Source: a virus. Taken from it: a stretch of 28,946 nt of DNA. Position numbers and translations under genes: made by a program. The notes under the pieces were generated by a model. The model was not told the DNA's origin. It made no database searches and saw nothing but the letters and a program-made list of their open reading frames with translations. The stretch spans positions 1 to 28,946 of the IMG/VR virus record IMGVR_UViG_3300033273_000440; one strand, given 5' to 3'. Below, in pieces: positions 1,261 to 28,946 of the stretch. Every line of letters begins with the position of its first letter. Position 1 is the stretch's first letter.

Positions 1261-1598
1261 AAGACGCCGCTAGGTACTGGGCCAGGGGCGGCGTAGTTGA
1301 CGAGAGAGAGGCTGACCTAAAAGCATTAGGTGCCAGCCCTGAGCAGATTTCTGCAGCCCGTCTGGAGGCTGTTGAGCAGGACTGTGAGGTGTGGGAAGAG
1401 AATTGGGAAACAGTGTTGATGTTCGTGCGAATGTCGACGCAATGGAATACGAGCATGGCTGGGCTTACGGGATTGAACTACCCGAGTCTTGAATGGCTCT
1501 GTAAGCTGTATTCAGTCAAGGATCCTGTCGCTTTATTTGAAGGCGTACAGGTGATGGAAACGACGGCGCTGTCGGTCCTAAACGCGGAACGCAAATGA
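934..1598 (+). CDS. Tail assembly chaperone G-T fusion made by -1 frameshift
   Basis: A -1 slip on the AAAAAAC heptamer at 1251-1257 bypasses the TAA and re-reads the C at 1257. Translation then continues as LKDAARYWARGGVVDEREAD and ends at 1598. The product would be 221 residues: 108 shared with the short form and 113 from the extension. The downstream frame has no good independent start near its beginning but is open from the slip point and reads as an ordinary helical protein, ending in a GLNYPSLEWLCKLYSVKDPVALFEG-type segment. In lambda the equivalent gpGT recruits tail tube subunits to the tape measure. The stop overlaps the tape measure ATG (ATGA at 1595-1598). Confidence 0.8.
1251..1294 (+). 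promoter_or_regulatory. Programmed -1 frameshift signal (slippery site plus stem-loop)
   Basis: The heptamer A AAA AAC (1251-1257) is in the correct phase in the G-like frame, just before its TAA stop. Six bases later a perfect 7-bp inverted repeat begins: ACGCCGC at 1264-1270 pairs with GCGGCGT at 1288-1294 around a 17-nt loop. This is the classic X XXY YYZ plus spacer plus stimulatory hairpin layout. A pseudoknot through the loop is possible but I did not establish one. Confidence 0.82.
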
Positions 1599-3823
1599 GC
1601 ATCACCTCTGAGATCAGGCTAAGGATCAAGAAAGAAGGTGATGTTGCGCTTACTCAGCTGAGTGCAAAGCTGAATGATGTTGCGTCGCGCTCTGTTGTTT
1701 CAAATAAAAAGTTTAAAGATCTTGCGGCAACTCTTAAGCAAAACGACAACCAAATTAAAGGCAAAAGCATTAATGCACTGAATGATTACAGCCGCGCTTG
1801 GCGTGAACTAGCAAACAGTGTTGATGTAACTAGCAGAGAATTTAGAGAGGCCACAAGAGAGGCTCAGCGTTTTGAGCGTGAGGCTGCCAGGGCGCAGGGT
1901 AGGCGCGGGGGTGGTCGATTAATGCGTGCAGCCCAGGGCGTCGGTGCCGTAGCTGCTGCGGGCATTTTTGGCGGCCCTGAAGGTTTTATTGGTGGCTTAG
2001 GTGGTCTTGCTCTCGGTGGCGTTGGGGGCGCCGCTGTTGGCGGTGCAATTGGTGCTTACGTCAAAAATATCCGCGAAGGACTAGGCGAAATTGCATCTTT
2101 TTCGGCCGCCATTCGTAGGCAAGAAATAGCACTGCAGGGGGTCGTAGGAACAGGCAATGAATACGCTTTTGCGCTAAGTGCTATCAATAAAGCGACAAAA
2201 GATTTTGCGATACCAACTAGTGTCCTAACTCGCGAATTCACAAAATTGCAGGCATCTGTGCAGGGTGCAGGCGGCAACGTTCAGGACACTGATAAAACTT
2301 TTAGAGCAATTGTTTCTTCAATTCGCGCTACTGGTGGCTCAATTGAAGACGTTCGCTCTGCTTTGACGGCAACAGCGCAGGTCTTTAGTAAAGGCAAGGT
2401 TTCTGCAGAGGAACTTCGCCAGCAAATTGGTGAGCGCTTGCCAGGTGCATTTACGTTGTTTGCTGAGTCAATTGGTAAAACACCTGCGGAGCTTGATAAA
2501 GCGCTTGAAGACGGACAAGTAAGCCTTCAAGACTTTATGAGTTTTGTTGAGCTGCTTCTTAATCGATATGAAAACAATGCCAAAAAAATTGCTAGCGGAC
2601 CAGAAGCAGCGGGTGATCGCTTGAAAGTTGTTCTTGAAGATCTCAAGAAAACGACAGGACCTATTTTGGCTGACATAGGCGCATCCTTTCAGTCATTTGC
2701 AGCTGATGCAGCCGAGGCCATTGGCGGGTTAATTAAAACGCTCGTCAAATTTGGCAAAGAAATGGAGGAAAAATTGGGCGGCAAATTGCTGGATAACGCT
2801 ATTAAAAATGTAAAAATACAAGATGCTGTAATCAAAAGACTTGAAGATCGGCGCAAGGCTGGATTACAACTGACTGATGACGAAAAGAGGCAGTTGGAAC
2901 TTGCTCAAACATTGCGTGCAGGCAGCATGCAGATCATTGAGGGCAGAAAACTTGGGCCAGCATTGCCAAGCGCTCCAAGTGCATTGCCTAGTACGCCAAT
3001 AGAAGACGAAGATAGCAAAACCCAAAAAATACGCACGTCAAGCAAAGAGATGCTTGCCTTGGCAGAGCGTAGAAATCAAGCCGCACAAGATCGCAACGAT
3101 CTGGCAGTCGCCTTGATTGATTACGAAATGACGGTGCAGCAAAACACCGAACGTTTCAACGCAAAAGAGATTGATTTTAATACAGCAAAAATAAACACCC
3201 TGAAGGGTGAGGAAGTTTTGCGCGACAGAATTTTAAGGTTGCGTCGCCAAGAGCAAAAAGAGCTTGCTCAACTTTCAAAGAAACAGAAAAACGTAAATAA
3301 GGAGTTGACTGAAGCAGAGGAGATCTCAAAAGCTCTTCTTTTAAATTTTGCTGACGGCATGTCTCGCGCCTTTATTGATTTGACCATGAAGGCAAAATCA
3401 TTCGGGCAAGTTTTAGGCGGCTTGCTTCAAAGTACTGCTCAACTATTGATTCAATTGAGCATGCAATCTGCCGTCAAGGGTCTGTTCCCTAACTTGTTTG
3501 CCATGGGTGGAGTCATGAGTAATGACGGCGCATTCCCTCTCAAACGCTACGCACGAGGCGGTGTTGCCAATAGCCCTCAATTGGCCATGTTTGGTGAGGG
3601 CAGCACCCCAGAGGCTTACGTGCCCTTGCCTGATGGCCGCTCCATCCCTGTGACCATGAAGAACGGCGGGAAAGGAATGGGCAACGTTGTTGTGAACGTG
3701 GATGCGACTGGAAGCAGTGTTGAAGGCGATAATGAGCAGGCCAATAGACTTGGTGAAGCAGTTGGCGTCGCAGTGCGTCAAGAACTCATTCGCCAGAAGC
3801 GTCCCGGAGGCCTGCTCGCGTAA
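1595..3823 (+). CDS. Tail tape measure protein
   Basis: At 742 residues this is a long gene just after the chaperones. The N-terminal ~105 residues are charged and helical. Residues ~110-156 are a hydrophobic Gly/Ala-rich stretch (GGLGGLALGGVGGAAVGGAI). Residues ~170-340 match the conserved tape-measure N-terminal domain (AINKATKDFAIPTSVLTREF, then EELRQQIGERLPGAFTLFAE and a KTPAELDKALEDGQVSLQDF-type segment). Helical coiled coil follows, and the C-terminus is Gly-rich (GEGSTPEAYVPLPDGRSIPV), a segment common at the end of lambda H-like proteins. It sets tail length and is ejected through the tube on infection. The length would predict a fairly short siphoviral tail, roughly 110 nm by the usual 0.15 nm per residue rule (inference). 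The stop (TAA, 3821-3823) shares its last base with the next ATG. Confidence 0.92.
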   Translation: MSITSEIRLRIKKEGDVALTQLSAKLNDVASRSVVSNKKFKDLAATLKQNDNQIKGKSINALNDYSRAWRELANSVDVTSREFREATREAQRFEREAARAQGRRGGGRLMRAAQGVGAVAAAGIFGGPEGFIGGLGGLALGGVGGAAVGGAIGAYVKNIREGLGEIASFSAAIRRQEIALQGVVGTGNEYAFALSAINKATKDFAIPTSVLTREFTKLQASVQGAGGNVQDTDKTFRAIVSSIRATGGSIEDVRSALTATAQVFSKGKVSAEELRQQIGERLPGAFTLFAESIGKTPAELDKALEDGQVSLQDFMSFVELLLNRYENNAKKIASGPEAAGDRLKVVLEDLKKTTGPILADIGASFQSFAADAAEAIGGLIKTLVKFGKEMEEKLGGKLLDNAIKNVKIQDAVIKRLEDRRKAGLQLTDDEKRQLELAQTLRAGSMQIIEGRKLGPALPSAPSALPSTPIEDEDSKTQKIRTSSKEMLALAERRNQAAQDRNDLAVALIDYEMTVQQNTERFNAKEIDFNTAKINTLKGEEVLRDRILRLRRQEQKELAQLSKKQKNVNKELTEAEEISKALLLNFADGMSRAFIDLTMKAKSFGQVLGGLLQSTAQLLIQLSMQSAVKGLFPNLFAMGGVMSNDGAFPLKRYARGGVANSPQLAMFGEGSTPEAYVPLPDGRSIPVTMKNGGKGMGNVVVNVDATGSSVEGDNEQANRLGEAVGVAVRQELIRQKRPGGLLA

Positions 3824-4200
3824 TGGCTACTTTTGATGATTCCACTGTTGGCACCAGCACGGGTGGCACCACACCTGATTTTGGTGCAATAAGAAAATCG
3901 GAGCCTAAAACTCGCACTGTGCAGTTTGGCGATGGATATCAACAGCGCTTGCTGTATGGAATTCCTTCCCACATGAATCCCAAAGTTTGGGATTTGAGAT
4001 GGACCGCTACAAGCAACTCTGACGCTGATGCGATTGAGGCATTCTTTGATGCTCGTGCAGAGGATGCTGCAAGTTTTGATTGGAGCCCGATAGACGACAC
4101 CAGCACTTACAAATGGATTTGTCGCAGTTGGCAGCGGACCCATCAATACGCAAACATCAATATCATCACGGCCACGTTTGAGCAGGTATTTGAACCGTAA
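3823..4200 (+). CDS. Minor tail protein, lambda M-like
   Basis: This 125-residue protein contains the features of the phage minor tail family that includes lambda gpM: PDFGAIRKSEPKTRTVQFGDGYQQR at residues ~19-45, then a central W-rich strand region (KVWDLRWTA) and a C-terminal TATFEQVFEP. In lambda gpM joins the tail tip complex after H, K, I, L and J have assembled. The gene starts at the base that ends the tape measure stop and its own stop shares a base with the next ATG, which implies tight translational coupling. Family and position agree. Confidence 0.88.
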   Translation: MATFDDSTVGTSTGGTTPDFGAIRKSEPKTRTVQFGDGYQQRLLYGIPSHMNPKVWDLRWTATSNSDADAIEAFFDARAEDAASFDWSPIDDTSTYKWICRSWQRTHQYANINIITATFEQVFEP

Positions 4201-4940
4201 TGGCTATCCCTGTTTCTGAGCTACAGAAAATCAACCCAAGCAGCATTATCGAGCTGTTTGAGCTAGTTACCGTCGAGGCCCTGCATGGTTCTGCGACGAC
4301 ATATCGCTTTCATGCTGGCAGCACTGATGTTGGCTCCGGAGATATTGTTTGGGATGGCAACACTTACAGCAAATTTCCAATCCAAATTGAAGGCTTTGAA
4401 TACAACGCAGAAAGTGGGAGTCTGCCAAGACCGACAATTAGGGTTGCAAACCTTCTGGGAACTATCACCACGATCTTGCTTGGTGTTAATGCAACAACGC
4501 CTGGCAATGACCTGACTGGCGCCAAAGTCACTCGCATTCGCACTTTGGTGCGTTATATCGATGATGTTAATTTTGACGGCGGTAGCAATCCATTTGGAAC
4601 GCCAGACACTACAAGCAAGCTGCCCGATGAAATTTATTATGTCGCTCGAAAGGTAAGTGAGACAAGGGATGTTGTTACCTTTGAATTGGCTGCAGCTTTT
4701 GACCTAGCTGGCGTTCGTGCGCCAAAACGTCAATGCAGTGCAAACCTTTGCCCCTGGATTTACAAGGGTTCTGAATGCGGTTATAGCGGTACAAAATATT
4801 TTGATGAAAACGACAATACAGTAAGCAGCTCTGCTGACGACAAATGCGGCAAGCGCTTAAATAGTTGCGCAATTCGTTTTGGTTCAACCGCTGAGCTACC
4901 TTTCGGTGGATTCCCCGGCATCGGCGCATTCAACGGATGA
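4200..4940 (+). CDS. Minor tail protein, lambda L-like
   Basis: The protein has 246 residues. The N-terminal two thirds are beta-rich (a [18 protein letters not shown]-type segment, [20 protein letters not shown]). The C-terminal third has the cysteine cluster of gpL-type proteins: C179, C184, C193, C216 and C223 within [17 protein letters not shown] and [17 protein letters not shown]. In lambda these cysteines hold an iron-sulfur cluster and the protein forms the distal ring of the tail tip. It lies between M-like and K-like genes exactly as in lambda. It overlaps the next gene by four bases. Confidence 0.9.
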
Positions 4941-5644
4941 AGGCCACCGCTAAAGCAAAAGCACTGGAGCACGCTAAGGCGGAGGACCCGCGTGAATCAT
5001 GCGGTTTGCTTGTCATCGTTAAGGGTCGCGAGCGGTATTGGCCATGTAAAAACTTGGCTGAGACAACCGAGTTTTTCATACTCGATCCAGTCGACTACGC
5101 CGCCGCCGAAGATAAGGGTGAAGTCGTAGCAGTCATCCATAGTCATCCTGTTACGCCACCTATTCCTAGCGAGGCCGATCGTGTTGCTTGCGAAAAGTCT
5201 GGACTGCCGTGGTACATCGTCAATCCGAAGACTGAGCAATGGGGTGAGCTGTCGCCTGAAGGCTACAAAGCACCGTTGATTGGACGCTCCTGGGTTTGGG
5301 GTGTTTCTGATTGCTGGACATTGGTTCGTGACTGGTATTCAGAGCAAGGCCTTAAGCTTCCTGATTGGGATCGTCCGGTGACTCCCGATGAATTCAATGC
5401 AAATCCCATGTTTGATAACTGCTGGGAGGAGGCCGGGTTTTACGAAGTTGATATCAGTGAAATGCAGCCAGGCGATGCAATGCTGATGGCCATCGACTCA
5501 GGCAAGCTCAATCACGTTGGGGTTTACATCGGCGATCAAATGGTTTTGCATCATTTGCGTGGCCGCCTGAGTAGCAGAGATTTATTGGGTGAGTGGCTTT
5601 TAAAATGCACAGGACGAGTGTTGCGCCATGGAACGAGAAGTTAG
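4937..5644 (+). CDS. Tail tip peptidase, lambda K-like (JAMM plus NlpC/P60)
   Basis: A two-domain protein of 235 residues. The N-terminal half is a Mov34/JAMM metallopeptidase-like domain: E20 in ESCGLLV, then HSHP at 68-71 and S78/D81 as metal and catalytic residues. The C-terminal half is an NlpC/P60-type cysteine peptidase: C126 in [13 protein letters not shown]193 in [10 protein letters not shown] and H205/H206 following. Lambda gpK has the same architecture and is needed for tail tip assembly; the NlpC/P60 half may open peptidoglycan during entry. All expected catalytic residues are visible. The 3' end overlaps the I-like gene by 17 bases. Confidence 0.9.
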
Positions 5645-6290
5645 GCTTTATGGCCCTTTGGCCAAGTTTGTTGGTCAGCGCAAATTTTTAGCTGAGATCA
5701 GCAGCGCAGGAGAGGCTGTGCGGATGCTGTTAGCCAATTTCCCAGGCATTGAGAGGCACATGGCTGATCAGTATTACAAGGTCATTGTTGATGGGATCGA
5801 ATCGGATGTAAAAGAGATTAATTATCCTGCTAGCCAGACAATCAAGATCGTCCCTGTTTTAGGTGGTGCTGGTGGCGGTGTTGGCAAAATCATTGCTGGT
5901 GTCGCCTTAGTTGCAACCGCGATCGTTCTTGGCCCTGTTGGTGGTGGTTTTCTTGGCCTAGGCATGGGCGTAGGTGGAGGTGTTGGTTTTGGTGCTTTAG
6001 GCACGGTCGCGTCAACTTTGATTGGTGCTGTTGGTGCCTCTTTGGTGCTTGGCGGTACTTCGCAACTTTTGAGTCCAACACCTCAAATCGGTCAAATTGG
6101 CCCTGCGTCGACTAGCGGTGGTTTCCGTCAAACAACGACTGAAGGCACAGAAATGGATCCGCAAGAGTCGTACAGCTTTAGCGGAATTCAAAACACCTCA
6201 CGGATGGGATTGCCCGTACCCTTGGTGTATGGAGAAACTGTCGTTGGATCGGTAGTTATCTCTGCTGGCATCGACGTTGACACGATCTGA
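5628..6290 (+). CDS. Tail assembly protein, lambda I-like
   Basis: A 220-residue protein. The first ~80 residues form a ubiquitin-like beta-grasp segment ([20 protein letters not shown], then [20 protein letters not shown]) as in lambda gpI. A Gly/Val-rich hydrophobic middle follows (about residues 85-145, including [20 protein letters not shown]). The C-terminus ends with a conserved [19 protein letters not shown]-type motif. The gene lies between K-like and J-like genes as expected. Its ATG is inside the K-like gene, which suggests coupling. In lambda gpI is needed for tail tip assembly but is not clearly found in the mature virion. Confidence 0.87.
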
Positions 6291-6292
6291 CG

Positions 6293-9200
6293 ATGGCTGA
6301 AAAAGAAACCAAGCAGATCATTGGCGCTGGCGGCGGTGGCGGTGGTGGTGGGGGCGGCCAGACAATTGTTCAGCAGACGGTTGTTGTTCAGCAGTCGGCC
6401 CCACCAGCTGTCAGGACGCCGACTAGGACTAGTGACAACCTTGCTTCTACAGCCAATGCCAGCATTCTTGATTTGCTGAGTGAGGGTGAGATTGAAGGAT
6501 TTCCGTCAGCTCGTGCTTATACCAGGGGCACAGATAATTACAACTTGGCATTGCTTAAAGATGTCTTTTTGACTGATACGCCGATCTTGCGTGCTGGTGC
6601 TGATGTAACGAACCTTACGGACGCGGATTACAACTTCAAAGGAGTCACTGTAAAGACCAGATACGGCACCAACGCTCAAACGTATATCGATGGTTTCGGC
6701 GCAACAGAAGATGTAAAGAGCGTTAATGCCGAGATCACAAAAGATACACCAATCACGCGGCAGATTACTGACACCAACGTCGACGCCGTTAGGGTCAGCA
6801 TTGCGGTGCCTAGGCTTGAGCGTGGCACTGCTCAGGGTGACGTTCTTGGGACAAGCGTTGAGCTAGACATCCAAGTTCAGTACAACGGCGGTGGCTTCAC
6901 TAGCGCCAAGACTGACGAGATTAGCGGCCGTACTGCTGACAAGTATGAGCGTGATTATTTGATCACTTTAGATGGAGCATTTCCTGTCGATATTCGTGTT
7001 GTTCGAGTTTCTGACGACGCAACAGATACCAACGTCAATCCAACCTTTTTTACAACGTATACCGAGATTATTTACGAAAAACTTCGTTATCCAAACAGCG
7101 CATTAGCAGCTATTCGTTTTCAGGCAGAACAGTTTAATAGTATTCCTGCCCGCGCTTATCGCATTCGCGGTATCAAGGTCAAAATTCCCAATAACGCAAC
7201 CGTTGATTCTGATACTGGCCGTTTAACTTACAGCGGCACTTGGACTGGAACATTTGGCGCTGCGCAATGGACCACCTGTCCAGCCTGGATACTTTATGAC
7301 CTTTTAATTTCTAAAAGGTATGGATTTGGTGATCACATTGCCGAATCTCAGCTTGATAAATTTGCGTTTCTTTCTGCTAGTCAATACGCAAATGAGTTGG
7401 TTGATGATGGCACGGGCAATAATACAAAAGAGGCTCGTTTCAGCTGCAACGCGCTGATTCAAAACCAATACGAAGCTTACAAGCTTGTCAATGATCTTTG
7501 TTCGGTCATGCGCTCGCAGCCGTTCTGGGCAACGGGCTCGTTGACGATTTCGCAGGATAAGCCGACCGATTCCAGCTACCTATTCAACCGCTCAAACGTT
7601 CTTGAGCCTGGTTTTAGTTATGCAGGTTCTGATCTAAAAACTCGCCATACAGTTGCTGTCGTCAGTTATCTCGATCTCAACTCACGTGAGCAAAATTACG
7701 AGATTGTCGAGGATCGCGACGCCATTGAAAAATATGGTTGGGTAGCCACACAAATCAAAGCTTTTGCCTGTACATCAAGAGGGCAAGCAAACAGGCTCGG
7801 GCAATGGATTTTATATTCCGAGCAAAACGAAACTGAGGTTATTAGTTTTACCTCTTCAATTGATGCGGGTGCACTGGTTCGTCCTGGCGCTGTTATCGAC
7901 GTTCAAGATCCTGTGCGTGCTGGCGTTCGATACGGCGGTCGCATTGCAAGCGCAACCACAACTGTCATCACGGTTGACGACACAACTGATTTGCCAACGT
8001 CCGGGGGCACTCTTTCTGTTCTGTTATCTGATGGCAGCGTGGAAACCAAGTCTGTTGACAGTCGTGATGGGGCTGCAATAACCGTTAGCAGTGCGTTCTC
8101 CTCTGCACCTAACACGAATAGTGTTTGGATTTATCAAACTGACGGCGTTCAAACCCAACAATATCGCGTACTGACAATTCAAGAAAAAGAAGGCAATTTA
8201 TACAACATTACTGCCCTCAAATACAACGCAAGTAAATATGACTATGTCGAGCGCGGTTTTGAGCTTGCTGCACGTGATATTACTAATCTCAACCCAATTC
8301 CTAATCCGCCGACAAGCCCTGCAGCCGTAGAGAAATTTTACGCTGTTGACAACAAGGCAAAAGTCAAAATTGTTGTTAGCTGGGCCGGAATCAAAGGTGT
8401 ACCTCAATACAAAGTTCGTTATCGCGCAGACAATGACAACTGGCAAACATTGGTCGTCGCAAGACCTGATGTAGAAATACTTGATACGCGAGCTGCTCAA
8501 TATCAAATTCGCATTTATAGCGTCAGCGCATTAGGTCGCCAATCAACCAGTTTTGCGAGCCTGACATTTAACGCAATCGGTAAAACGGCCGTCCCTGCGG
8601 ATGTTCAAAATCTTACTTTTGAGCCTATCAGCGCCAACTCTGGCCGTCTTCGTTGGGATGAAGCAACTGATCTTGACGTAAAGGCTGGCGGCAAGGTCTA
8701 CATCCGCCATAGCAATCTCACTGACGGGTCAGGCACTTGGAGTAATAGTGTCAACCTGATCGAAGCGAAGGCGGGGAATTCGACAGAAGCGATCATCCCG
8801 CTTGTAGAAGGCGAGGTGATGGTGAAATTTGCCGATGATGGCGGCAGACTTAGCACTAACGAAACCAGCGTAATTATTGATCTGCCCGACACATTGGGCA
8901 GCTTGTTAGTTGCTTCACGCCGAGAAGATCAGGACACCCCTCCATTCCAAGGCACGCGAACGGATGTTTTTTACGACGAAGATTTAGACGCTCTGACCTT
9001 GGACGGCACAGAGGATATTGATGATGTGACGGATGTGGATGATATGCCGACGTTTGACGTGATCGGTGATGTCTCGTCTAGCGGAAGCTATGAGTTTGCA
9101 ACAACGCTTGATCTTGAAGGCGTCTACAGCTTGGACCTGAGCCGGTACTTCGTCACTCGTAGTTACTTTCCAAGTGATCTGATCGACACTCGCGCTGAGA

Positions 9201-9712
9201 ACGTTGATGACTGGGACGATTGGGATGGCGGAGTCACAGACAAAGTAAATGCAACTTTGATGGTCCGCAGAACAAATGATGATCCTTCTGGGTCACCTAC
9301 ATGGGGTAACTGGCAAGAGTTTGTCAATGGAACTTTTAAGGCAAGAGCCTTTCAATTCCGCGCTGACATGACAAGTCAAGATATTGCGCAGAACATTTTG
9401 ATTGATGAGCTTGGCTACAACGCCACGTTCCAGCGCCGTCAAGAGCAGGCCAATGGAGCCATTGCAAGTGGTGCTGGTGCTAAGGCGGTGAGCTTCACAA
9501 ATGCTTTTTGGACTGGCACTGCGAGCTTGGGCGGGACCAATGCTTATTTGCCGAGCGTTGGTATCAATGCAGAAAACATGCAGACCGGTGACTTTTTTGA
9601 GGTCAGCAGCGTTAGCGGCACTGGCTTCACTGTGACGTTTAAGAACAGCAGCGGTACAGCCGTTGATCGAAATTTCACATGGTCTGCGGTGGGGTATGGC
9701 AAGGCTGGGTAG
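6293..9712 (+). CDS. Central tail fibre / host specificity protein, lambda J-like
   Basis: The protein has 1139 residues and starts two bases after the I-like stop. An N-terminal polyglycine run (residues ~12-22) and a Gln/Val stretch precede the conserved J core, which includes the NLASTANASILDLLSEGEIE segment and a tip-attachment region with TCPAWILYDLLISKRYGFGD near residue 325. Two fibronectin type III-like modules follow at ~665-755 and ~763-865. The C-terminus (ending in NFTWSAVGYGKAG) is beta-rich and probably fibrous. J trimers form the tail tip and, in lambda, bind the receptor. Here a separate adhesin with hypervariable tip follows, so receptor contact may be shared. Confidence 0.9.
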   Translation: MAEKETKQIIGAGGGGGGGGGGQTIVQQTVVVQQSAPPAVRTPTRTSDNLASTANASILDLLSEGEIEGFPSARAYTRGTDNYNLALLKDVFLTDTPILRAGADVTNLTDADYNFKGVTVKTRYGTNAQTYIDGFGATEDVKSVNAEITKDTPITRQITDTNVDAVRVSIAVPRLERGTAQGDVLGTSVELDIQVQYNGGGFTSAKTDEISGRTADKYERDYLITLDGAFPVDIRVVRVSDDATDTNVNPTFFTTYTEIIYEKLRYPNSALAAIRFQAEQFNSIPARAYRIRGIKVKIPNNATVDSDTGRLTYSGTWTGTFGAAQWTTCPAWILYDLLISKRYGFGDHIAESQLDKFAFLSASQYANELVDDGTGNNTKEARFSCNALIQNQYEAYKLVNDLCSVMRSQPFWATGSLTISQDKPTDSSYLFNRSNVLEPGFSYAGSDLKTRHTVAVVSYLDLNSREQNYEIVEDRDAIEKYGWVATQIKAFACTSRGQANRLGQWILYSEQNETEVISFTSSIDAGALVRPGAVIDVQDPVRAGVRYGGRIASATTTVITVDDTTDLPTSGGTLSVLLSDGSVETKSVDSRDGAAITVSSAFSSAPNTNSVWIYQTDGVQTQQYRVLTIQEKEGNLYNITALKYNASKYDYVERGFELAARDITNLNPIPNPPTSPAAVEKFYAVDNKAKVKIVVSWAGIKGVPQYKVRYRADNDNWQTLVVARPDVEILDTRAAQYQIRIYSVSALGRQSTSFASLTFNAIGKTAVPADVQNLTFEPISANSGRLRWDEATDLDVKAGGKVYIRHSNLTDGSGTWSNSVNLIEAKAGNSTEAIIPLVEGEVMVKFADDGGRLSTNETSVIIDLPDTLGSLLVASRREDQDTPPFQGTRTDVFYDEDLDALTLDGTEDIDDVTDVDDMPTFDVIGDVSSSGSYEFATTLDLEGVYSLDLSRYFVTRSYFPSDLIDTRAENVDDWDDWDGGVTDKVNATLMVRRTNDDPSGSPTWGNWQEFVNGTFKARAFQFRADMTSQDIAQNILIDELGYNATFQRRQEQANGAIASGAGAKAVSFTNAFWTGTASLGGTNAYLPSVGINAENMQTGDFFEVSSVSGTGFTVTFKNSSGTAVDRNFTWSAVGYGKAG

Positions 9713-9740: not shown

Positions 9741-11240
9741 GTGGCGCAGCACGATTACAACATTGCCAACGGCACAGGCGCCGCAGTCCGCAGCGACCTC
9801 AATAATGCCCTTTCGGCAATCGTTAGCAATAACAGCGGCTCAACTGAACCGGCTACTACGTTTGCTTTTCAGTGGTGGGCGGATACCAACGCAAGCCAAC
9901 TGAAGCTGCGCAACGCTGCGAACGACGCATGGATCGTCATTCAGGAACTGGATGGCACCTTATTGATGGAGGATGGCACGGCAGGATCACCGGGTCTTGC
10001 CTTTGCGTCTGATCTCAATACTGGATTCTTCCGACCTGCTGCTGATCAGCTAGCGATTGCAACTGCTGGCACTGAACGGGTTGAGTTTGGCACCAGCGAG
10101 GTGGTATTTAACGATGGCGGCGCAGATGTTGATTTCAGGGTTGAAGGTGACACTGAAGCAAATTTGCTTTTAGTTGATGCAGGAAACGACGTTGTAAGGA
10201 TTGGTGGTGGGTACAACATTCTGAAAGGATTTAATCGCCGCCCACCCGTTCATCGCGGCCCATTGTTTTATAAAACCGCAGCAGCAACAATTAGCATCGT
10301 TGCAAATTCTGCGTTAAACGGTTTCTTTTACGATGCGGCCACGGCAGTCACGATGCCAGCAAGCCACAGCAACAACACCGATTATGCCATCTGGCAGCAT
10401 CCGACTACTGGTGCATTAGTTGCTGATGCGAGCTTTACATCAGCCCCTGCTGGAGCAAGTGGCGGTTCAATTGTTGGTGGTTATCACTACATTCCGAGTG
10501 GACGTCCTACAGCAGTAAATAACGGCAGTCCTACTGCGGCAGCGGAGATTCTGGAGTACAGCATTTGGGATTTGACATGGCGGCCATCATGCCCTGATCC
10601 CCGTGGGATGGCATGTATTGACGAGCGATTCTGGTGTGATCTTTATTTTTGTGGGAGCACGTCTTATGCAGGAACTGATTTTAGTGCAGTACCAAGCAGC
10701 AAGATCGGATTGACAATTGCTGATGGCACTAGTCATCCATTGATTCCTGCGTTTTATGGTGGCGACGGTTCTACTGCTTATGCAGATGCCAGCCCCTTGC
10801 TTGCTGGATGTTGGTATGACTTCTGTGAAGTTGCCAGCAGTTTTGGCAAGCGTTTGTTAACAATGAGCGAATTTCAGGTTGCTGCATTTGGTGCTCCTGA
10901 AGCCGGAAGTCGCGGCAGTGATCCTGGAACTGTGCAATGGGAACGCGCAAGCAAATGGGGCTTAGCACAAGCAACCGGCACGCTTTATTCGTGGGGTGCT
11001 GACCTATTGTTTAGAGATGTAAACTCTCAAACATTTGGTTGGCAGTCGCACGGAACACGCGGTCGCGGTGATGTGTATCAACAAGGTAATGATGATTCGC
11101 TTGTTGCGGTCATCCTGGGTGGCAACTGGCTCCATGGTTCCAGTTCCGGTTCACGCACGTCAGGCTGGGACGTTCGGCCCTGGCTTGCGAGCGACGCCCG
11201 TTCGGCTCGCTTTGCCGCCGAGCACCTTGTAACTTGCTAA
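9741..11240 (+). CDS. DGR-diversified tail fibre adhesin (variable protein)
   Basis: This 499-residue protein begins with GTG at 9741. The first ~155 residues (AQHDYNIANGTGAAVRSDLN, then AFQWWADTNASQLKLRNAAN and DVDFRVEGDTEANLLLVDAG) resemble cyanophage tail-fibre attachment regions. Residues ~260-499 look like a C-type-lectin fold of the formylglycine-generating-enzyme kind used by many DGR targets: CPDPRGMACIDERFWCDLYF, a LLTMSEFQVAAFGAPEAGSR-like helix and a final GGNWLHGSSSGSRTSGWD strand region. Codons 455-493 coincide with the variable repeat. Ten of the residues there sit on AAY codons in the template, so this surface should vary between phage progeny while the GGNW..GS.SGSR scaffold stays fixed. 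It most likely binds the host receptor. Confidence 0.9.
   Translation: MAQHDYNIANGTGAAVRSDLNNALSAIVSNNSGSTEPATTFAFQWWADTNASQLKLRNAANDAWIVIQELDGTLLMEDGTAGSPGLAFASDLNTGFFRPAADQLAIATAGTERVEFGTSEVVFNDGGADVDFRVEGDTEANLLLVDAGNDVVRIGGGYNILKGFNRRPPVHRGPLFYKTAAATISIVANSALNGFFYDAATAVTMPASHSNNTDYAIWQHPTTGALVADASFTSAPAGASGGSIVGGYHYIPSGRPTAVNNGSPTAAAEILEYSIWDLTWRPSCPDPRGMACIDERFWCDLYFCGSTSYAGTDFSAVPSSKIGLTIADGTSHPLIPAFYGGDGSTAYADASPLLAGCWYDFCEVASSFGKRLLTMSEFQVAAFGAPEAGSRGSDPGTVQWERASKWGLAQATGTLYSWGADLLFRDVNSQTFGWQSHGTRGRGDVYQQGNDDSLVAVILGGNWLHGSSSGSRTSGWDVRPWLASDARSARFAAEHLVTC
11104..11220 (+). repeat. DGR variable repeat (VR)
   Basis: A 117-bp segment at the 3' end of the adhesin gene that aligns without gaps to 11672-11788 (constant offset 568). 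There are 19 mismatches; 18 lie where the template has A, and one is T to G. The final 19 bases (11202-11220) are identical to the template and lack A entirely, which fits the initiation-of-mutagenic-homing core that defines the recipient end. The VR ends six codons before the stop codon. Confidence 0.96.
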
Positions 11241-11242
11241 GA

Positions 11243-11256
11243 GGCGCGACAGCGCC
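11243..11256 (+). promoter_or_regulatory. DGR target-site hairpin/cruciform downstream of VR
   Basis: GGCGC at 11243-11247 pairs with GCGCC at 11252-11256 around the loop GACA. It starts 22 bases after the VR and two bases after the adhesin stop. In BPP-1 and other DGRs a short GC-rich hairpin with a GRNA-type tetraloop just past the VR promotes retrohoming; GACA fits GRNA. The stem is short (5 bp versus the 7-10 bp usually described). It is absent after the TR, as expected for a target-only element. Confidence 0.6.
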
Positions 11257-11263
11257 GACGGCT

Positions 11264-11653
11264 ATGACAGCAAAAAGAGCAACAGCACAACCAGGCAAAG
11301 AGGCTCATGGCTTTTACATGCTTGAAAAATATGAACGTGTTATTGAATACCTCTACCCAATTGCTCAAAACATTCCAAGAAAACACGGTGTCTTTCGTGA
11401 TCTATTGATAGAACATTTGTTTCACACCGCACAACTTCTTGCTGACGCCATCAAGGTTAATCAATTGAATCGTTGCTATTTGCTTGATTCAGCTATCGCT
11501 CAACTCAGGCTGCTTACTCGTTTTATGGTGCATCACAAAAGAAAAATGATTACTGAGCATCAACTTGAAGTAATACAAGAGCTGATTGCAGAAGTTGGCA
11601 GCATGTTGGGCAAGTGGATTTGCAGATTAAAGAAAAAACCTGCAGTATGCTGA
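11264..11653 (+). CDS. avd: DGR accessory variability determinant (Avd-like)
   Basis: A small, basic, strongly helical protein: 129 residues from ATG 11264 or 111 from ATG 11318, close to the usual Avd length. The core (MLEKYERVIEYLYPIAQNIP, a KHGVFRDLLIEHLFHTAQLL-type helix, then LNRCYLLDSAIAQLRLLTRF and a fourth helix) has the pattern of the barrel-forming four-helix Avd family, including the YLYP..QNIPR motif near the start. Avd binds the reverse transcriptase and the template RNA and is required for mutagenic cDNA synthesis. The frame stays open up to a TTG at 11234 that overlaps the adhesin stop, but that start would translate through the hairpin. An AGAGG lies 14 bases upstream of ATG 11318. 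Which start is used is uncertain. Confidence 0.87.
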   Translation: MTAKRATAQPGKEAHGFYMLEKYERVIEYLYPIAQNIPRKHGVFRDLLIEHLFHTAQLLADAIKVNQLNRCYLLDSAIAQLRLLTRFMVHHKRKMITEHQLEVIQELIAEVGSMLGKWICRLKKKPAVC

Positions 11654-11671
11654 TACTGGGTGCAAAGGGTT

Positions 11672-11788
11672 TTGCGGTCATCCTGGGTGGCAACTGGAAC
11701 AATGGTTCCAATTCCGGTTCACGCACGTCAAACTGGAACAATCAGCCATGGAATGCGAACAACAACATTTCGGCTCGCTTTGCCGCCG
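11672..11788 (+). repeat. DGR template repeat (TR)
   Basis: The 117-bp template lies between avd and the reverse transcriptase. It has 29 adenines, 18 of which are substituted in the VR. Ten AAC/AAT codons lie in the diversified stretch (in VR phase); AAY codons cannot become stop codons by substitution at A, a hallmark of selected DGR templates. An eleventh AAC, in the GGNW motif near the start, is unchanged in the VR. The last 19 bases contain no A. It would be transcribed as RNA and copied by the RT/Avd complex. Confidence 0.96.
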
Positions 11789-11945
11789 TGGCAACTGATC
11801 TGTGCCATTATGCTCCTTTGTTCTTACGAGGCATTGGGCAGGTACTAAAACAAGGTGCCAGCCTTTGCATCCAGCTTCGGCAAACTCAGGGCCGAGTGGT
11901 GGCAATAGCAGGGAGTAGTTCATCGAAACCTGCCGCTACCTTCTG
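11789..11945 (+). ncRNA. TR RNA 3' spacer between TR and RT
   Basis: This 157-bp stretch separates the template from the reverse transcriptase gene. In BPP-1 the equivalent spacer RNA folds, binds RT-Avd and primes cDNA synthesis, so this segment is the probable counterpart (inference from position). An open frame runs through TR and spacer to a TGA at 11944-11946, but the spacer part has no recognisable protein character. No factor-independent terminator is visible, so TR and RT may share a transcript. Confidence 0.5.
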
Positions 11946-12920
11946 ATGGGCAAAAAGTTTCGCAACCTCTACGAACAGATTTATGCTTGGGACAACTTGC
12001 TCGTTGCCTATACAGAAGCACGGCGCGGCAAGACCTACAGCAGTTCGTACTTACGTTTTAAGGAATATCACTTAACCAACCTGCGTCATTTGCAGTTGCG
12101 GTTGATTGAAGGCGCATGGACGCCGGATGAACAGCTGCAGTTCGACATCATTGACCCCAAGAAACGCACCATTGCGTGCCAGAGCTTCCGCGACAGGGTG
12201 TTGCACCATGCCCTGATACAGGTCGTGGGGCCAATTCTGGATGCCGCGACAATGCCGCAGGTGTTTGCCTGCCGGGTTGGTTTAGGCACGCACCGCTGCG
12301 TCACGCGGATGCAACAGCTGATGCGGCAGAACCCAAATGGCTGGGTGTTGCATGTGGATTTCAGCAAGTTCTTCCCGTCTATTCCGCAGGATCTGCTGCT
12401 GACACACCTTGCCAAGAAGCTCAGCTGCCAGCGGACGCTGTTGCTAATCGAGCAGGTGTTGAGCGTGCAGGAACGCGGCCTGCCCATCGGTGCGCTAACC
12501 AGCCAGACCTTTGCCAACTACTGGGGCGGCAAGTTAGACCGCTTCATCGCATTGAAAGGCATCGGCAGCTTTGTGCGCTACATGGACGACGCTGCTGTGA
12601 TCGTGACCAATAAGGCTCAGGGGCTACAGCTCAAGGACGAGATTTGCGCCTTTGTTGCCAGCGAAATGAACCAGCGCATCGGCAAATGGAGCTTGGGGCC
12701 GGTAGAACGCGGCATCACGTTCTGCGGATTTCGGATCCGGCGCAAATACAAGTTGATCAAGCGGCAATCCATGATCCGTCAACGCCGCAAACTTAAGATC
12801 CTGCTTGAGCATGAGGATTATGAGAGCTGGCGTCATTCGCAAATTGCTTTTATGGGTCACATACGGCATGGTGATGGGCAGAATGGTCTAAGACATTTGG
12901 ATTTGGCAGCACCATGCTGA
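11946..12920 (+). CDS. DGR reverse transcriptase
   Basis: The protein has 324 residues, usual for compact DGR enzymes. Motifs in order: FRDRVLHHAL (81-90), FACRVGLGTHR (107-117), motif 3 HVDFSKFFPSI with catalytic D138, motif 4 GLPIGALTSQ (178-187), motif 5 RYMDD with D214/D215, and ITFCGFRI (257-264). SQ in motif 4, in place of the QG of retroviral and group II intron enzymes, is diagnostic of DGR reverse transcriptases. There is no maturase or endonuclease domain. All three catalytic aspartates are present, so it should be active. With Avd it copies the TR RNA, misincorporating opposite adenines, and the cDNA replaces the VR. The stop overlaps the next ATG (ATGCTGA). Confidence 0.96.
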   Translation: MGKKFRNLYEQIYAWDNLLVAYTEARRGKTYSSSYLRFKEYHLTNLRHLQLRLIEGAWTPDEQLQFDIIDPKKRTIACQSFRDRVLHHALIQVVGPILDAATMPQVFACRVGLGTHRCVTRMQQLMRQNPNGWVLHVDFSKFFPSIPQDLLLTHLAKKLSCQRTLLLIEQVLSVQERGLPIGALTSQTFANYWGGKLDRFIALKGIGSFVRYMDDAAVIVTNKAQGLQLKDEICAFVASEMNQRIGKWSLGPVERGITFCGFRIRRKYKLIKRQSMIRQRRKLKILLEHEDYESWRHSQIAFMGHIRHGDGQNGLRHLDLAAPC

Positions 12921-13162
12921 TCAACACTGCCACCGACCTTGCGGCAACAGAACCCAGCCCAGAGCGCACTGCGTTTCTAAACAACCTGCTGAACGACTAC
13001 ATCACCTTTGATGATGCGATCTATCCCCAGGACTATGACCACAACTTGCAGCCTGGCGATGCTGGCTACATTGCCCCTGTAAATCGTCAGGAGTGGAACG
13101 CTGGCGCTGCTGCGCAATGGGGCTTTACTGATCGCGCTGCTGTTGAGGCAGCTCTCGTCTGA
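12914..13162 (+). CDS. Hypothetical protein downstream of the RT
   Basis: This 82-residue acidic protein starts at an ATG inside the last codons of the RT gene, so it is translationally coupled to it. The sequence (SPERTAFLNNLLNDYITFDD, then PGDAGYIAPVNRQEWNAGAA and FTDRAAVEAALV) has no signal peptide or membrane segment. I do not recognise a family. Coupling to the DGR cassette is striking but may simply reflect phage gene packing; a fibre-related role is a guess. Confidence 0.75.
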   Translation: MLINTATDLAATEPSPERTAFLNNLLNDYITFDDAIYPQDYDHNLQPGDAGYIAPVNRQEWNAGAAAQWGFTDRAAVEAALV

Positions 13163-13497: not shown

Positions 13498-13866
13498 ATG
13501 TTTAAAGCTGCTTCTGCTGCTCTTGCCTGTGTGGCCCTGGGTGTTGCATTCGCTCCTGCAGCCAAAGCTGATGGTTTCTATGTGAATCCTGAGTACAACC
13601 TCGGTTTTTCCGGCAACCAGACCAACGGCGGTGGTGCAATTGACGCCCACGTCGGTTACGAGGCTGGCCCCTGGTATATCCAAGGCGGCCCCACCGTTGT
13701 CTTCCCTGAAGACGCTGCCACTGACTATCAGTTCTCTGCCAAAACTGGCCTGAGTGCTGATGTCACCGCTGACGGCAAGCTCGGTATCTACACCGAGGTC
13801 AGCATGATCACTGGCGACAAAAGCAACAGCTACGGCCTTAAGCTCGGTTCCAAGTACAAGTTCTGA
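13498..13866 (+). CDS. Secreted outer-membrane-like beta-barrel protein
   Basis: The 122-residue protein has a clear signal peptide (MFKAASAALACVALGVAFAP, predicted cut after AAKA-D). The mature part alternates polar and hydrophobic residues (GFYVNPEYNLGFSG, HVGYEAGPWYIQGGP, YGLKLGSKYKF) and ends in Phe, as outer-membrane barrel strands do. It is too short for a complete porin but could be a small 8-strand barrel or part of an oligomer. I recall similar proteins in marine cyanophages and cyanobacteria. If made during infection it would go to the host periplasm or outer membrane, for instance to alter receptors or envelope properties (inference). It is followed by a terminator. Confidence 0.8.
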   Translation: MFKAASAALACVALGVAFAPAAKADGFYVNPEYNLGFSGNQTNGGGAIDAHVGYEAGPWYIQGGPTVVFPEDAATDYQFSAKTGLSADVTADGKLGIYTEVSMITGDKSNSYGLKLGSKYKF

Positions 13867-26297: not shown

Positions 26298-26331
26298 TAA
26301 TACCCTCACAATCGCAATCTGAAGGGTATTA
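26298..26331. repeat. Inverted repeat near the iterons
   Basis: TAATACCCT (26298-26306) and AGGGTATTA (26323-26331) are perfect complements 16 bases apart. The loop contains ATCGCAAT. The element lies about 60 bp after the third direct repeat in AT-rich DNA, which suits an origin or a regulatory site. Confidence 0.6.
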
Positions 26332-26356
26332 GAATGCACAAGCAATCACACATGCA

Positions 26357-26372
26357 AGCAATTAGAATTGCT
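26357..26372. repeat. Short palindrome in the AT-rich tract
   Basis: AGCAATT AG AATTGCT is a 7+7 bp palindrome. The GCAAT word recurs on both strands between 26310 and 26420, and again near 28785-28840, which suggests a shared DNA-binding site family. Confidence 0.5.
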
Positions 26373-26704
26373 CACACATGAAATTGCAAGTACAAACAAA
26401 TGCAATTAAATAAATGTAGACGCAATTACAAATAACGCTTACAAAATGTGCAAAGTATAAAGAATAAACAATTAGGGGCATCCGGGACGCACCCGGCACC
26501 CGCCGCCCACGCGGCCCCCGCACCCTGCCCCTGGCCGTCCGTGCCTGTCAGCGGCCCACGCGGTCAAGCCGGATCATCCCGCCGCACAGTGTGCCAATCA
26601 AAAAATCGGCACCAATTTCGGCACGCTGCTAGCTACCGGTGGCCTTACCGGCTATTGTCTCTATTAAGCGCGGTCCCAATCGCATCCGCCGCGCTTCTAA
26701 AGCC

Positions 26705-26887
26705 ATGACCCTTTCCATCATCTGGTGGGGCTTGCTGCCCCTGCTGCTTGTGATCGCAGCGGTCGACCTGCTGACGATGAGTCAGCCCCGCCGCGTCCGA
26801 CTGCTCCGCCGTTCCGGCATGACTCAAGCGGCCATCGCTGACCGCTTGGGGATCAGTCGCTACCGCGTCCGCCAGGCTCTCGCCTGA
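26705..26887 (+). CDS. Small membrane protein with helix-turn-helix tail
   Basis: The 60-residue product starts at ATG 26705. The first ~22 residues form a membrane segment (TLSIIWWGLLPLLLVIAAVD). The rest (SQPRRVRLLRRSGMTQAAIA, then DRLGISRYRVRQALA) is a helix-turn-helix of the resolvase or sigma-like kind. Membrane-tethered HTH peptides of this form occur in marine Synechococcus and their phages from memory. CCCAATCGCATCC lies in the leader (26675-26687). It may regulate the cassette or attach DNA to the membrane. Confidence 0.7.
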   Translation: MTLSIIWWGLLPLLLVIAAVDLLTMSQPRRVRLLRRSGMTQAAIADRLGISRYRVRQALA

Positions 26888-26914
26888 CCCGTCCACCATT
26901 ACCCAATTGCACCC

Positions 26915-27160
26915 ATGACCCGTTTTATTCCCGCCGCGCTGCTTGCAGCCGGTTCAATTGCCCTAGGACTTGTGGCAGGCAATCAAGCCCGCCTCATTTC
27001 TGAATCCGACAGCGCCGCCGCTGCTGCCCCTGCTGCTCTGCCCTTTCTTTTCTTCGCTACGGCTGCCGCGACTACGGGCTTTGCTGCCGCTGTGTCCGCT
27101 TCTGACGCCACTGCCCGCCGGGGGGGCGCTCACCTTTCCGCTCTGGAGCGCTGCCTGTGA
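26915..27160 (+). CDS. Small two-segment membrane protein
   Basis: The 81-residue product starts at ATG 26915, directly after a CCCAATTGCACCC motif and without a Shine-Dalgarno site. Two hydrophobic segments (IPAALLAAGSIALGLVAGNQ and LPFLFFATAAATTGFAAAVS) are joined by a short polar link, with a basic tail. It is of unknown function. Its TGA overlaps the GTG of the next gene, so the two are coupled. Confidence 0.65.
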   Translation: MTRFIPAALLAAGSIALGLVAGNQARLISESDSAAAAAPAALPFLFFATAAATTGFAAAVSASDATARRGGAHLSALERCL

Positions 27161-27306
27161 CCTACCCCCTAGATCTGCCCCTATGGCTCGAGCAGGCAGA
27201 AATTGCCGAAGAACAACGACAGGCGCACATTGCCGCTAATGATCTGCCGGATGATTGGCAGCCCGACTCTGAAGACGTCGCCCCATGGTGGCGCCAACCT
27301 GACTAA
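27157..27306 (+). CDS. Small acidic hypothetical protein
   Basis: A 49-residue peptide from GTG 27157, too short for routine gene finding. It reads MTYPLDLPLWLEQAEIAEEQ, then RQAHIAANDLPDDWQPDSED and VAPWWRQPD. It is acidic with five Trp residues. The GTGA overlap with the previous stop and the next gene's similar leader support it. The function is unknown. Confidence 0.6.
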   Translation: MTYPLDLPLWLEQAEIAEEQRQAHIAANDLPDDWQPDSEDVAPWWRQPD

Positions 27307-27327
27307 CCCCATCGCACCCCCTAACCC

Positions 27328-27519
27328 GTGACCTTTCAACCTGACGCCCCATACGATCCCGCCGACAACCTGCCCCCCGCTGACATCCGAGAAGACTTTT
27401 CAGGTCTGACCTATGAAGCGGGATACAACCCCCAGCGCCTGCTTGATCGGCTCGCCGTATGGCTGCCTGCCGATCGGCTCGCTGAATTCATGGACGACCT
27501 GGCAATGGGTCGCATCTAA
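27328..27519 (+). CDS. Small acidic hypothetical protein
   Basis: The 63-residue product starts at GTG 27328, eight bases after a CCCCATCGCACCCC motif. It is acidic and Pro-rich at first (DAPYDPADNLPPADIREDFS), then helical (NPQRLLDRLAVWLPADRLAE, FMDDLAMGRI). No family recognised. It is followed by a terminator. Confidence 0.65.
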   Translation: MTFQPDAPYDPADNLPPADIREDFSGLTYEAGYNPQRLLDRLAVWLPADRLAEFMDDLAMGRI

Positions 27520-27525
27520 CCCCCT

Positions 27526-27548
27526 GCCCGCCATTGCGCGGGCTTTTT
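27526..27548 (+). terminator. Factor-independent terminator
   Basis: GCCCGC (27526-27531) pairs with GCGGGC (27538-27543) around CATTGC, followed by TTTTT. It begins seven bases after the preceding stop and is a strong GC-rich stem. Confidence 0.85.
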
Positions 27549-27575
27549 ATTTCCTACCCAATCGCACCCCAGGAA

Positions 27576-28265
27576 ATGCTCCAAACGCTCCGCTTCCATC
27601 TGACCCGCGTCAGTTCAAACGCTAAAACCGGACCAATCCCCGTCAGCACAAGCAGCAAGACCACTTGCCCCGCCACTTGCCCATTTATGGGCAATGGCTG
27701 TTATGCGGCCAGCGGTCCGCTTGCGATCCATTGGCAGGCGATCACGCGCGGCGACCGTGGCACCCCCCTAGCTGATTTCCTAGATCAGATCCGCAAGCTT
27801 CCCGCCGGTCAGCTGTGGCGCCACAACCAAGCGGGCGACCTGCCGCACAGCGGGGGCAAGATTTCCCGCCGCTTTATTCGTGCCATCGTCGACGCCAATC
27901 GGGGGCGCCGTGGTTTCACCTATACCCACCACGACCTGACCAAGGGCGAGAATCTGCCCCTCTTGCGGTATGCCAACCGCAACGGCTTCCGCGTCAACGT
28001 GTCGACCGAATCCGAAGCGGCCGCCGATCGCGCCATTGAAGCTGGCCTACCGGCCGTGATGGCCTGCCCTAGCACTGAAACCCGCAACACGTGGCGCACC
28101 CTTGCAGGCAATGCCGTCTTGGTCTGCCCAGCCCAGCGCAGCGACTCGAAGCAGTGCGCAACCTGCGAGCTTTGCCATACAAGAGGCCGCCGCGTGATCA
28201 TCGCTTTTAAAGCCCACGGAACGGGCAAGAAGAAGGCCGATGCGGCCATTGCCGCCGCTCAGTAG
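27576..28265 (+). CDS. Cys-rich conserved phage/plasmid protein (DUF7227-like)
   Basis: The 229-residue protein starts at ATG 27576 (AGGAA just before it); an upstream start at 27534 would lie inside the terminator. Motifs: SSNAKTGPIPVSTSSKTTCP (15-34) with CPATCPFMGNGCYAASGPLA following, QLWRHNQAGDLPHSGGKISR, RRGFTYTHHDLTKG, and a late cysteine set (LVCPAQRSDSKQCATCELCH) before RRVIIAFKAHGTGKKKADAA. This combination matches a widespread phage/plasmid family that I believe is DUF7227 (name from memory). The Cys groups suggest metal binding. The function is not known to me. Confidence 0.75.
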   Translation: MLQTLRFHLTRVSSNAKTGPIPVSTSSKTTCPATCPFMGNGCYAASGPLAIHWQAITRGDRGTPLADFLDQIRKLPAGQLWRHNQAGDLPHSGGKISRRFIRAIVDANRGRRGFTYTHHDLTKGENLPLLRYANRNGFRVNVSTESEAAADRAIEAGLPAVMACPSTETRNTWRTLAGNAVLVCPAQRSDSKQCATCELCHTRGRRVIIAFKAHGTGKKKADAAIAAAQ

Positions 28266-28291
28266 CCTGCAACCAATCACACCTACCCACG

Positions 28292-28314
28292 GCCCCCAAT
28301 GCGGGGGCTTTTTT
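28292..28314 (+). terminator. Factor-independent terminator
   Basis: GCCCCC (28292-28297) and GGGGGC (28303-28308) pair around AATGC, followed by six T. It ends the Cys-rich gene. Confidence 0.88.
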
Positions 28315-28399
28315 ATTGTCTAGGCTTGGGATACGTTCAGCCCCACGGGGCCGCAGTCAGCCGCGCATGGAACGGGGTGCGGTACTGCCGATCCGACCC

Positions 28400-28582
28400 A
28401 TGGCACCCATTAACACCCTGGCCCTCGTGCGCCAACAGTTGACCAAGCAGCAGCGCCTACGCTCAGCGCAACTGCTCACCGCCAAGGCTTATAGGGGCGT
28501 CCCGTACACTCAGGCACCCCATACGGCCCCACAGCCTGCCGATCTGACCTACAGGGGCAAGGCCTACCACGTCGACCGCTGA
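28400..28582 (+). CDS. Small protein with two YRG motifs (DUF4278-like)
   Basis: The 60-residue product starts at ATG 28400; the longer frame from 28316 has a non-conserved Arg-rich extension. After a helix (ALVRQQLTKQQRLRSAQLLT) come AKAYRGVPYTQ and LTYRGKAYHVDR. The twin L.YRG..Y pattern is characteristic of small cyanobacterial proteins (DUF4278-like, from memory), which supports a cyanobacterial host. It is basic; the role is unknown. Confidence 0.65.
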   Translation: MAPINTLALVRQQLTKQQRLRSAQLLTAKAYRGVPYTQAPHTAPQPADLTYRGKAYHVDR

Positions 28583-28618
28583 GCGCTCACAGCCCATAGG
28601 CCCCACGGCTGACCCTTC

Positions 28619-28645
28619 GCCCCTGCCATACGGTGGGGGCTTTTT
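28619..28645 (+). terminator. Factor-independent terminator
   Basis: A nine-pair stem (GCCCCTGCC with GGTGGGGGC, two wobble pairs) closes on ATAC and is followed by TTTTT. It ends the last gene of the GC-rich cassette. Confidence 0.85.
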
Positions 28646-28925
28646 CATGCCTGCCCACCACCGGCCCGGCCTGCCCTGCTGCGGCTCACTCTGTGCAGTT
28701 GTTATAAATAATAGCTAACTAGTATTTGTTGCTGATAATTCGGTGTGCTGTGCAGTCTGTGTTGTTGTTAATTGTTATTGCTTTGCAATTTATGTTGTTT
28801 GTAATTAATTATGCTTGCAATCGCAATAGTTGGCAATTGTAATAGCCCAAATGTGCAGGCCAGGGGCTTGCTCAGCCGGACAATGTGGGTCCTTTCCGCG
28901 TGCTCGCGTGCGGGTAATTTCGAAC
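28646..28925. other. Non-coding AT-rich end region
   Basis: There is no supported gene. About 28697-28850 is AT-rich, with repeated TTGTT, TTGCAAT and AATTG words (for example GCTTTGCAATTTATG and CTTGCAATCGCAATAG), similar in vocabulary to 26310-26440. The rest is mixed composition up to the adapter. Confidence 0.6.
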
Positions 28926-28946
28926 AGATCGGAAGAGCGTCGTGTA
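28926..28946. other. Illumina sequencing adapter, not biological
   Basis: The last 21 bases begin AGATCGGAAGAGCGTCGTGT, the start of the standard Illumina TruSeq adapter read-through sequence. They mark an untrimmed read end. The true sequence ends at or before 28925, and this end of the contig is artificial. Confidence 0.95.

Follow-up and report, generated by a model that had tools for sequence, protein, structure and literature searches.

Cyanophages shape populations of Synechococcus and Prochlorococcus, and a central question about these viruses is by what means they follow their hosts' receptors as these change. A 28.9-kb linear fragment of viral DNA (IMG/VR record IMGVR_UViG_3300033273_000440, 28,946 nt, referred to below as the window) raises it in a specific form: does the stretch at 9741-12920, read in an earlier note as a complete diversity-generating retroelement (DGR) aimed at a cyanophage tail fibre, encode such a system, and is that system still in use? 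We conclude that it is very probably a complete DGR of the BPP-1 type, carried by a tailed phage of marine Synechococcus-type cyanobacteria and diversifying the receptor-binding protein Mtd. At the level of sequence, this reading draws on the presence of all parts, adenine-directed variation, recent variation between contigs from the same sample and intact motifs; RNA priming, the homing route and receptor switching we infer from BPP-1. The features are as follows.

9741..11240, + strand: DGR target, Mtd-like receptor-binding protein, 499 aa, GTG start (PF21916, phrog_11262, S-CBS1 mtd, Mtd in PDB)
11104..11220, + strand: variable region (VR), 117 nt (84% identity to TR; 18/19 mismatches at TR adenines)
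11200..11220, + strand: adenine-free 3' end of the VR, likely homing start, IMH-like (VR/TR alignments, comparison with BPP-1 VR/TR)
11243..11256, + strand: DNA hairpin or cruciform GGCGC-GACA-GCGCC, between mtd stop and avd start (33 VR/TR loci, stem covariation)
11264..11653, + strand: avd, accessory variability determinant, 129 aa from the ATG at 11264 (PF22296, NF033474, PDB 4dwl)
11672..11788, + strand: template repeat (TR), 117 nt, with AAC/AAT codons holding most of its 29 adenines (repeat search, VR/TR alignment)
11789..11945, + strand: conserved non-coding TR-RT spacer, with a stem just before the RT start (family alignment, consensus fold)
11946..12920, + strand: DGR reverse transcriptase (RT), 324 aa, with LPIGALTSQ and YMDD (RVT_1, phrog_1423, PDB 8ub7, tree)
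12914..13162, + strand: conserved neighbour gene phrog_30757, marking the insertion context (immediately downstream of mtd where relatives have no DGR)

Anatomy of the cassette

A repeat search of the window returned a single direct-repeat pair near the claimed place, with the two 117-nt copies spaced by 568 nt. They differ at 19 positions, 18 of which face TR adenines and one a T (T>G; hypergeometric P 8.9e-13). The changes in the window VR comprise 9 A>G, 6 A>C and 3 A>T, and first or second codon positions account for 18 of the 19 mismatches. Between the end of the VR and the stop codon of ORF 9741-11240 lie 17 nt. The earlier note was therefore correct, in parts and coordinates, in placing a 117-bp VR at the adhesin C-terminus with a matching TR, and the gene order that it gave (target with VR, avd, TR, RT) is that of BPP-1. 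VR and TR diverge immediately 3' of the adenine-free stretch at 11200-11220, which is likely to be an IMH-like element. The identical 3' ends were at first read as a missing IMH/IMH* difference; comparison with BPP-1 set this reading aside, as both simply part right after the GC-rich element.

The target protein contains the second domain of Mtd (PF21916, E 2.6e-19) and matches phrog_11262 (E 5.6e-116). Residues 175-497 match the Mtd crystal structures (PDB 1yu4, E 1.4e-46), and the Mtd part as a whole (165-499) is 71% identical to mtd of phage S-CBS1. The N-terminus (1-119) resembles fibres of Prochlorococcus siphoviruses, with 56% identity to MED4-184/MED4-117, and is also similar to fibres of Roseobacter and Pelagibacter phages. 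A full-length model of the protein was set aside (pLDDT 54). Foldseek with a weak model of the C-terminus (pLDDT 55) gave Mtd first, followed by formylglycine-generating enzymes. A C-type-lectin fold, as proposed earlier, is thus expected at the C-terminus, from the Mtd sequence match and the fold match of this weak model.

Avd was recognised by PF22296 (E 4.5e-20), by phrog_3206 ('Avd protein of DGR') and by PDB 4dwl (Bbp7, E 1e-27). With 90.9 bits it passes the cut-off of the NCBIfam DGR-Avd model NF033474 (80 bits). The RT matched RVT_1 (E 1.8e-12), phrog_1423 (E 1.7e-84) and the BPP-1 RT structure 8ub7 (E 1.2e-63); BPP-1 brt was the best solved structure, with 218 bits against 65 for the top group II intron RT. 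The DGR motif [ILV]GxxxSQ, as LPIGALTSQ, and the catalytic YMDD are intact, as is D138, and D138, GALTSQ and YMDD are invariant across 25 aligned family members. A position outside the DGR clade had been named as evidence against the reading; in a small tree of 17 RTs, the window RT was found inside that clade, sister to BPP-1 brt (support 100/97) and apart from group II intron RTs (100/99).

The window Avd is 96-97% identical to those of L041 and L052, the closest carriers of a window-type TR, yet the window RT is only 75-79% identical to theirs. Its nearest RTs (87%) are those of L002 and L009, where Avd identity is 70%. The TR of L052 is 98% identical to that of the window, and the flanking spacer 86%. 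The window cassette looks like a mosaic in these comparisons, with a breakpoint between avd/TR and RT.

Two non-coding elements accompany the genes. The hairpin lies 22 nt downstream of the VR and was found in all 33 VR/TR loci examined. Its stem covaries across loci (GGCGC/GCGCC to GGCCC/GGGCC), with a family loop of GNNA. Hairpins or cruciforms of phage DGRs have been described as lying 4-34 bp behind the VR, with a stem of 7-10 bp and a GRNA loop (PMC3240598); the window hairpin agrees in distance and, with GACA, in its loop, whereas its stem has 5 bp and the family loop is the wider GNNA. Conservation of the TR-RT spacer is strong; the spacer has a 12-pair stem in its consensus fold, with some compensatory changes, and is probably part of the DGR RNA. 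A conserved reading frame in it is unlikely because of indels among relatives.

Natural variation in the viral family

Searches of IMG/VR with the window RT gave 41 loci, and with an RT profile 47. There was no RT relative in an alignment against 85k bacterial and archaeal genomes, and hence no sign of prophages. Among the first VR/TR pairs examined, L019 alone was not adenine-specific. When 32 loci were pooled, 499 of 870 TR adenines (57%) were changed in the VR, as opposed to 5 of 2151 C/G positions (0.2%) and 21 of 723 T positions. T>G made up 19 of the 21 T changes and of the 26 non-adenine changes overall. These T>G changes occurred at window position 11200 (TR position 97) and at TR positions 10, 13 and 42; besides the window they were located in L004, L005, L009, L014, L018, L020, L029, L030, L031 and L050. 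Template drift does not explain them, since 13 lie where all 32 TRs have T. They may reflect a second, weak error specificity of the RT; alternatively, selection may have retained rare errors, several of which yield Arg or Ala.

Several loci combine one template with different variable regions. A single TR is common to L006, L011, L012, L025 and L037, which have five different VRs. The TRs of L041 and L052 differ from that of the window by 3 and 2 nt, while their VRs differ from the window VR at 20 and 16 of 28 adenine sites. The contigs L011 and L012 come from the same sample and have identical TR, Avd and compared RT stretch; their VRs differ at 8 of 28 adenine sites and at 0 of 89 other sites (Fisher 4.6e-6). 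These are 8 of the 13 differences in a shared 3 kb, the other 5 being spread over 2.9 kb. Differences confined within the VR to adenine sites are the signature of recent retrohoming, and such natural contig pairs support recent homing for the family, the L011/L012 pair comparing cassettes and not strains, as the two differ outside the shared stretch.

L011 and L012 are otherwise different phages, with 99.6% identity over the shared mtd-avd-TR-RT stretch, as would result if the cassette had recently been exchanged as a module or if the assembly were chimeric. The near-identical contigs L015 (2735-2903) and L017 differ at about 28 sites, all within the 160 bp before the VR and at its start, and L017 has a 60-nt in-frame deletion inside the VR. 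This pair was left out as homing evidence, as most of its differences lie upstream of the VR. L008 and L021 were set aside (Avd missing in both; VR and TR fused in L008), with possible assembly collapse between the repeats.

Templates also vary. The TRs of L019, L020 and L048 have lost 15, 5 and 4 of 24 conserved adenines. In L020, all five TR differences from its sister L018 are A>G, and each equals the letter of L020's own VR; a mutated copy appears to have replaced its template.

Loss of the element and competing explanations

Two cultured Synechococcus phages, S-CBS1 and S-CBS3, retain mtd, the VR and an identical hairpin. Directly adjoining these is a remnant of the RT gene, its final 45 codons, and next comes the homologue of gene 12914-13162; what has been deleted is Avd, TR and RT residues 1-277. 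Their records annotate mtd and none of the other parts, the RT remnant included. Contig L042 carries a full cassette and aligns to S-CBS1 over 18.1 of 20.8 kb at 88.7% nucleotide identity. The alignment is interrupted by a gap of 1.5 kb that opens immediately downstream of the hairpin and closes near RT codon 278, with a short shared sequence at both ends. Further deletions with other junctions were found in L063, L080, L102 and L107, all of which kept mtd, VR and hairpin. Altogether at least five deletions differ in their junctions, which suggests that the element was lost more than once, leaving the adhesin frozen. Another 17 Mtd loci showed no part of a DGR, and in most of these the homologue of gene 12914-13162 lies within about 50 nt after mtd. 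On a tree of the non-variable part of Mtd (45 rows), presence of an intact DGR changes at least 13 times, a count that does not separate gain from loss and that cassette recombination, as in L011/L012, may inflate.

In most DGR-less loci the VR differs from relatives' TRs mainly at adenines, for example at 17/19 mismatches in L102 and 13/17 in S-CBS3; S-CBS1 by itself is weak, at 13/26. The test is biased by the choice of the reference TR for few non-adenine mismatches. Marinomonas phage P12026 has an unannotated Avd fragment (3001-3174, residues 2-64) directly behind an Mtd-domain gene, and no RT within the 6-kb stretch read. It is probably another DGR fossil in a cultured marine phage.

Such losses bear on whether the window element is a DGR by anatomy only, its VR written long ago and its machinery heading for deletion as in S-CBS1/S-CBS3. 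Loss appears frequent in the group, given the state changes on the Mtd tree and the fossils with different junctions, and the adenine-depleted templates of L019 and L020 point the same way. In the window, however, TR, hairpin, spacer and all RT motifs are intact, the VR pattern is still almost purely adenine-directed, without the neutral drift expected after long inactivity, and relatives with the same TR type have other VRs; we consider present inactivity unlikely. Alternatively, the repeats could have arisen when a variable part of the adhesin was simply duplicated and then diversified through selection or recombination, next to an unrelated RT. Codons with A probably specify surface residues of the lectin face, where selection would cause variation in any case, and L015/L017 document recombination just upstream of the VR. 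The adenine specificity seen across the family contradicts this explanation: within the same codons, bases other than A are scarcely altered, and mismatches are directional from TR across the 32 loci. With an RT that is a DGR RT and adjoins an Avd, we give it almost no credence.

For the preferred reading, a complete DGR acting on Mtd, we propose the following course. A transcript of TR and spacer would be copied by an RT-Avd complex that misreads template adenines. The mutated cDNA would then replace the VR, with the adenine-free VR 3' end and the hairpin behind it as the landing site. The outcome would be a phage population in which the C-type-lectin face of Mtd is varied at many residues, so that some members could still adsorb after a change of the host surface. 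In relatives the machinery appears to have been deleted repeatedly, leaving a fixed adhesin.

Host, known systems and meaning

The earlier attribution to a Synechococcus-type phage holds. The protein encoded at 13498-13866 matched 431 phage records, 428 of them named Synechococcus phage, Prochlorococcus phage or cyanophage and 3 uncultured phage. The J-like protein is nearest to Prochlorococcus phages MED4-117 and P-HS2, and among deposited phages Mtd is nearest to S-CBS1 and S-CBS3, which also have close homologues of gene 12914-13162. J, Mtd, this gene, RusA and recombination genes are common to the window and Synechococcus/Prochlorococcus phages. Several genes are shared with phages of the S-CBS1/S-CBS3 type, the tail genes at 1595-9712 being closer to L051/L011 and J to Prochlorococcus phages. 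Megablast of the whole window against phage records gave no match. Picocyanobacteria as hosts are well supported, judging from these relatives.

The right end of the window (26300-28946) has a higher G+C content (62% in 27-28 kb) and gene content not shared with the S-CBS relatives; gene 27534-28265 (phrog_2554) is most similar to genes of a Synechococcus phage and of Pseudomonas phages. A virus of a non-cyanobacterial marine host that merely borrowed cyanophage-like genes would accommodate this deviating composition, a gene common mostly to Pseudomonas phages, and the likeness of the Mtd N-terminus to Roseobacter and Pelagibacter fibres. It sits poorly with the protein at 13498-13866, matched only in cyanophages and the three uncultured phages, and with the genes listed above as common to Synechococcus/Prochlorococcus phages, and we hold it to be very unlikely.

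The system resembles that of Bordetella phage BPP-1 (mtd-avd-TR-brt) in gene order, in protein identity (Mtd 39% over 176-497, Avd 45%, RT 38%), in a TR-RT spacer of similar length with a shared GCTTCGGCRAAC motif and in the hairpin behind the VR. It differs in its cyanobacterial setting, lambda-type tail genes, Mtd N-terminus, repeat length (117 against 134 nt) and hairpin (stem of 5 against 8 bp, and the GNNA loop of the window family). S-CBS1/S-CBS3 have an Mtd 66-71% identical to that of the window, including a VR, share the hairpin and the downstream gene, and, unlike the window, are without Avd, TR and RT 1-277.

A metagenomic catalogue of DGRs (Roux et al. 2021, PMC8144416) reported phage-encoded DGRs on attachment proteins of the CLec fold with adenine bias; the word Synechococcus is absent from its main text. 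No description of this DGR was found in the open papers searched, though the paper that first described the S-CBS genomes (Huang et al. 2012, cited in PMC6157547) may mention it; nor did those papers hold anything relevant that links S-CBS1/S-CBS3 to a reverse transcriptase or to tropism, or cyanophages to a major tropism determinant. The mechanism is of the known BPP-1 kind; the clade, the fossils and the template erosion are the new parts. The hairpin, the conserved spacer, the relatives and the fossils in cultured phages go beyond the earlier note.

We tentatively suggest, at somewhat short of even confidence, that the DGR is a transient tool in these cyanophages. It would diversify Mtd and then be removed by small illegitimate deletions sparing mtd, with the adhesin frozen at its current specificity; S-CBS1 and S-CBS3 would be such frozen descendants. 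The template too could be overwritten by an adenine-mutated copy, as in L019, L020 and L048, shrinking the reachable repertoire. If this is true, the intact, fossil and absent states amount to a natural series in which the costs and benefits of targeted hypermutation could be measured.

Specialists may be surprised by DGR remains in cultured Synechococcus phages, and by intact, decaying and absent states side by side in one clade. A DGR on a cyanophage receptor-binding protein would be a specific mechanism for tracking receptor change. As the fossils sit in phages that have already been cultured, it should be possible to isolate intact sister phages, and with them loss and retention of targeted hypermutation could be compared within one phage group.
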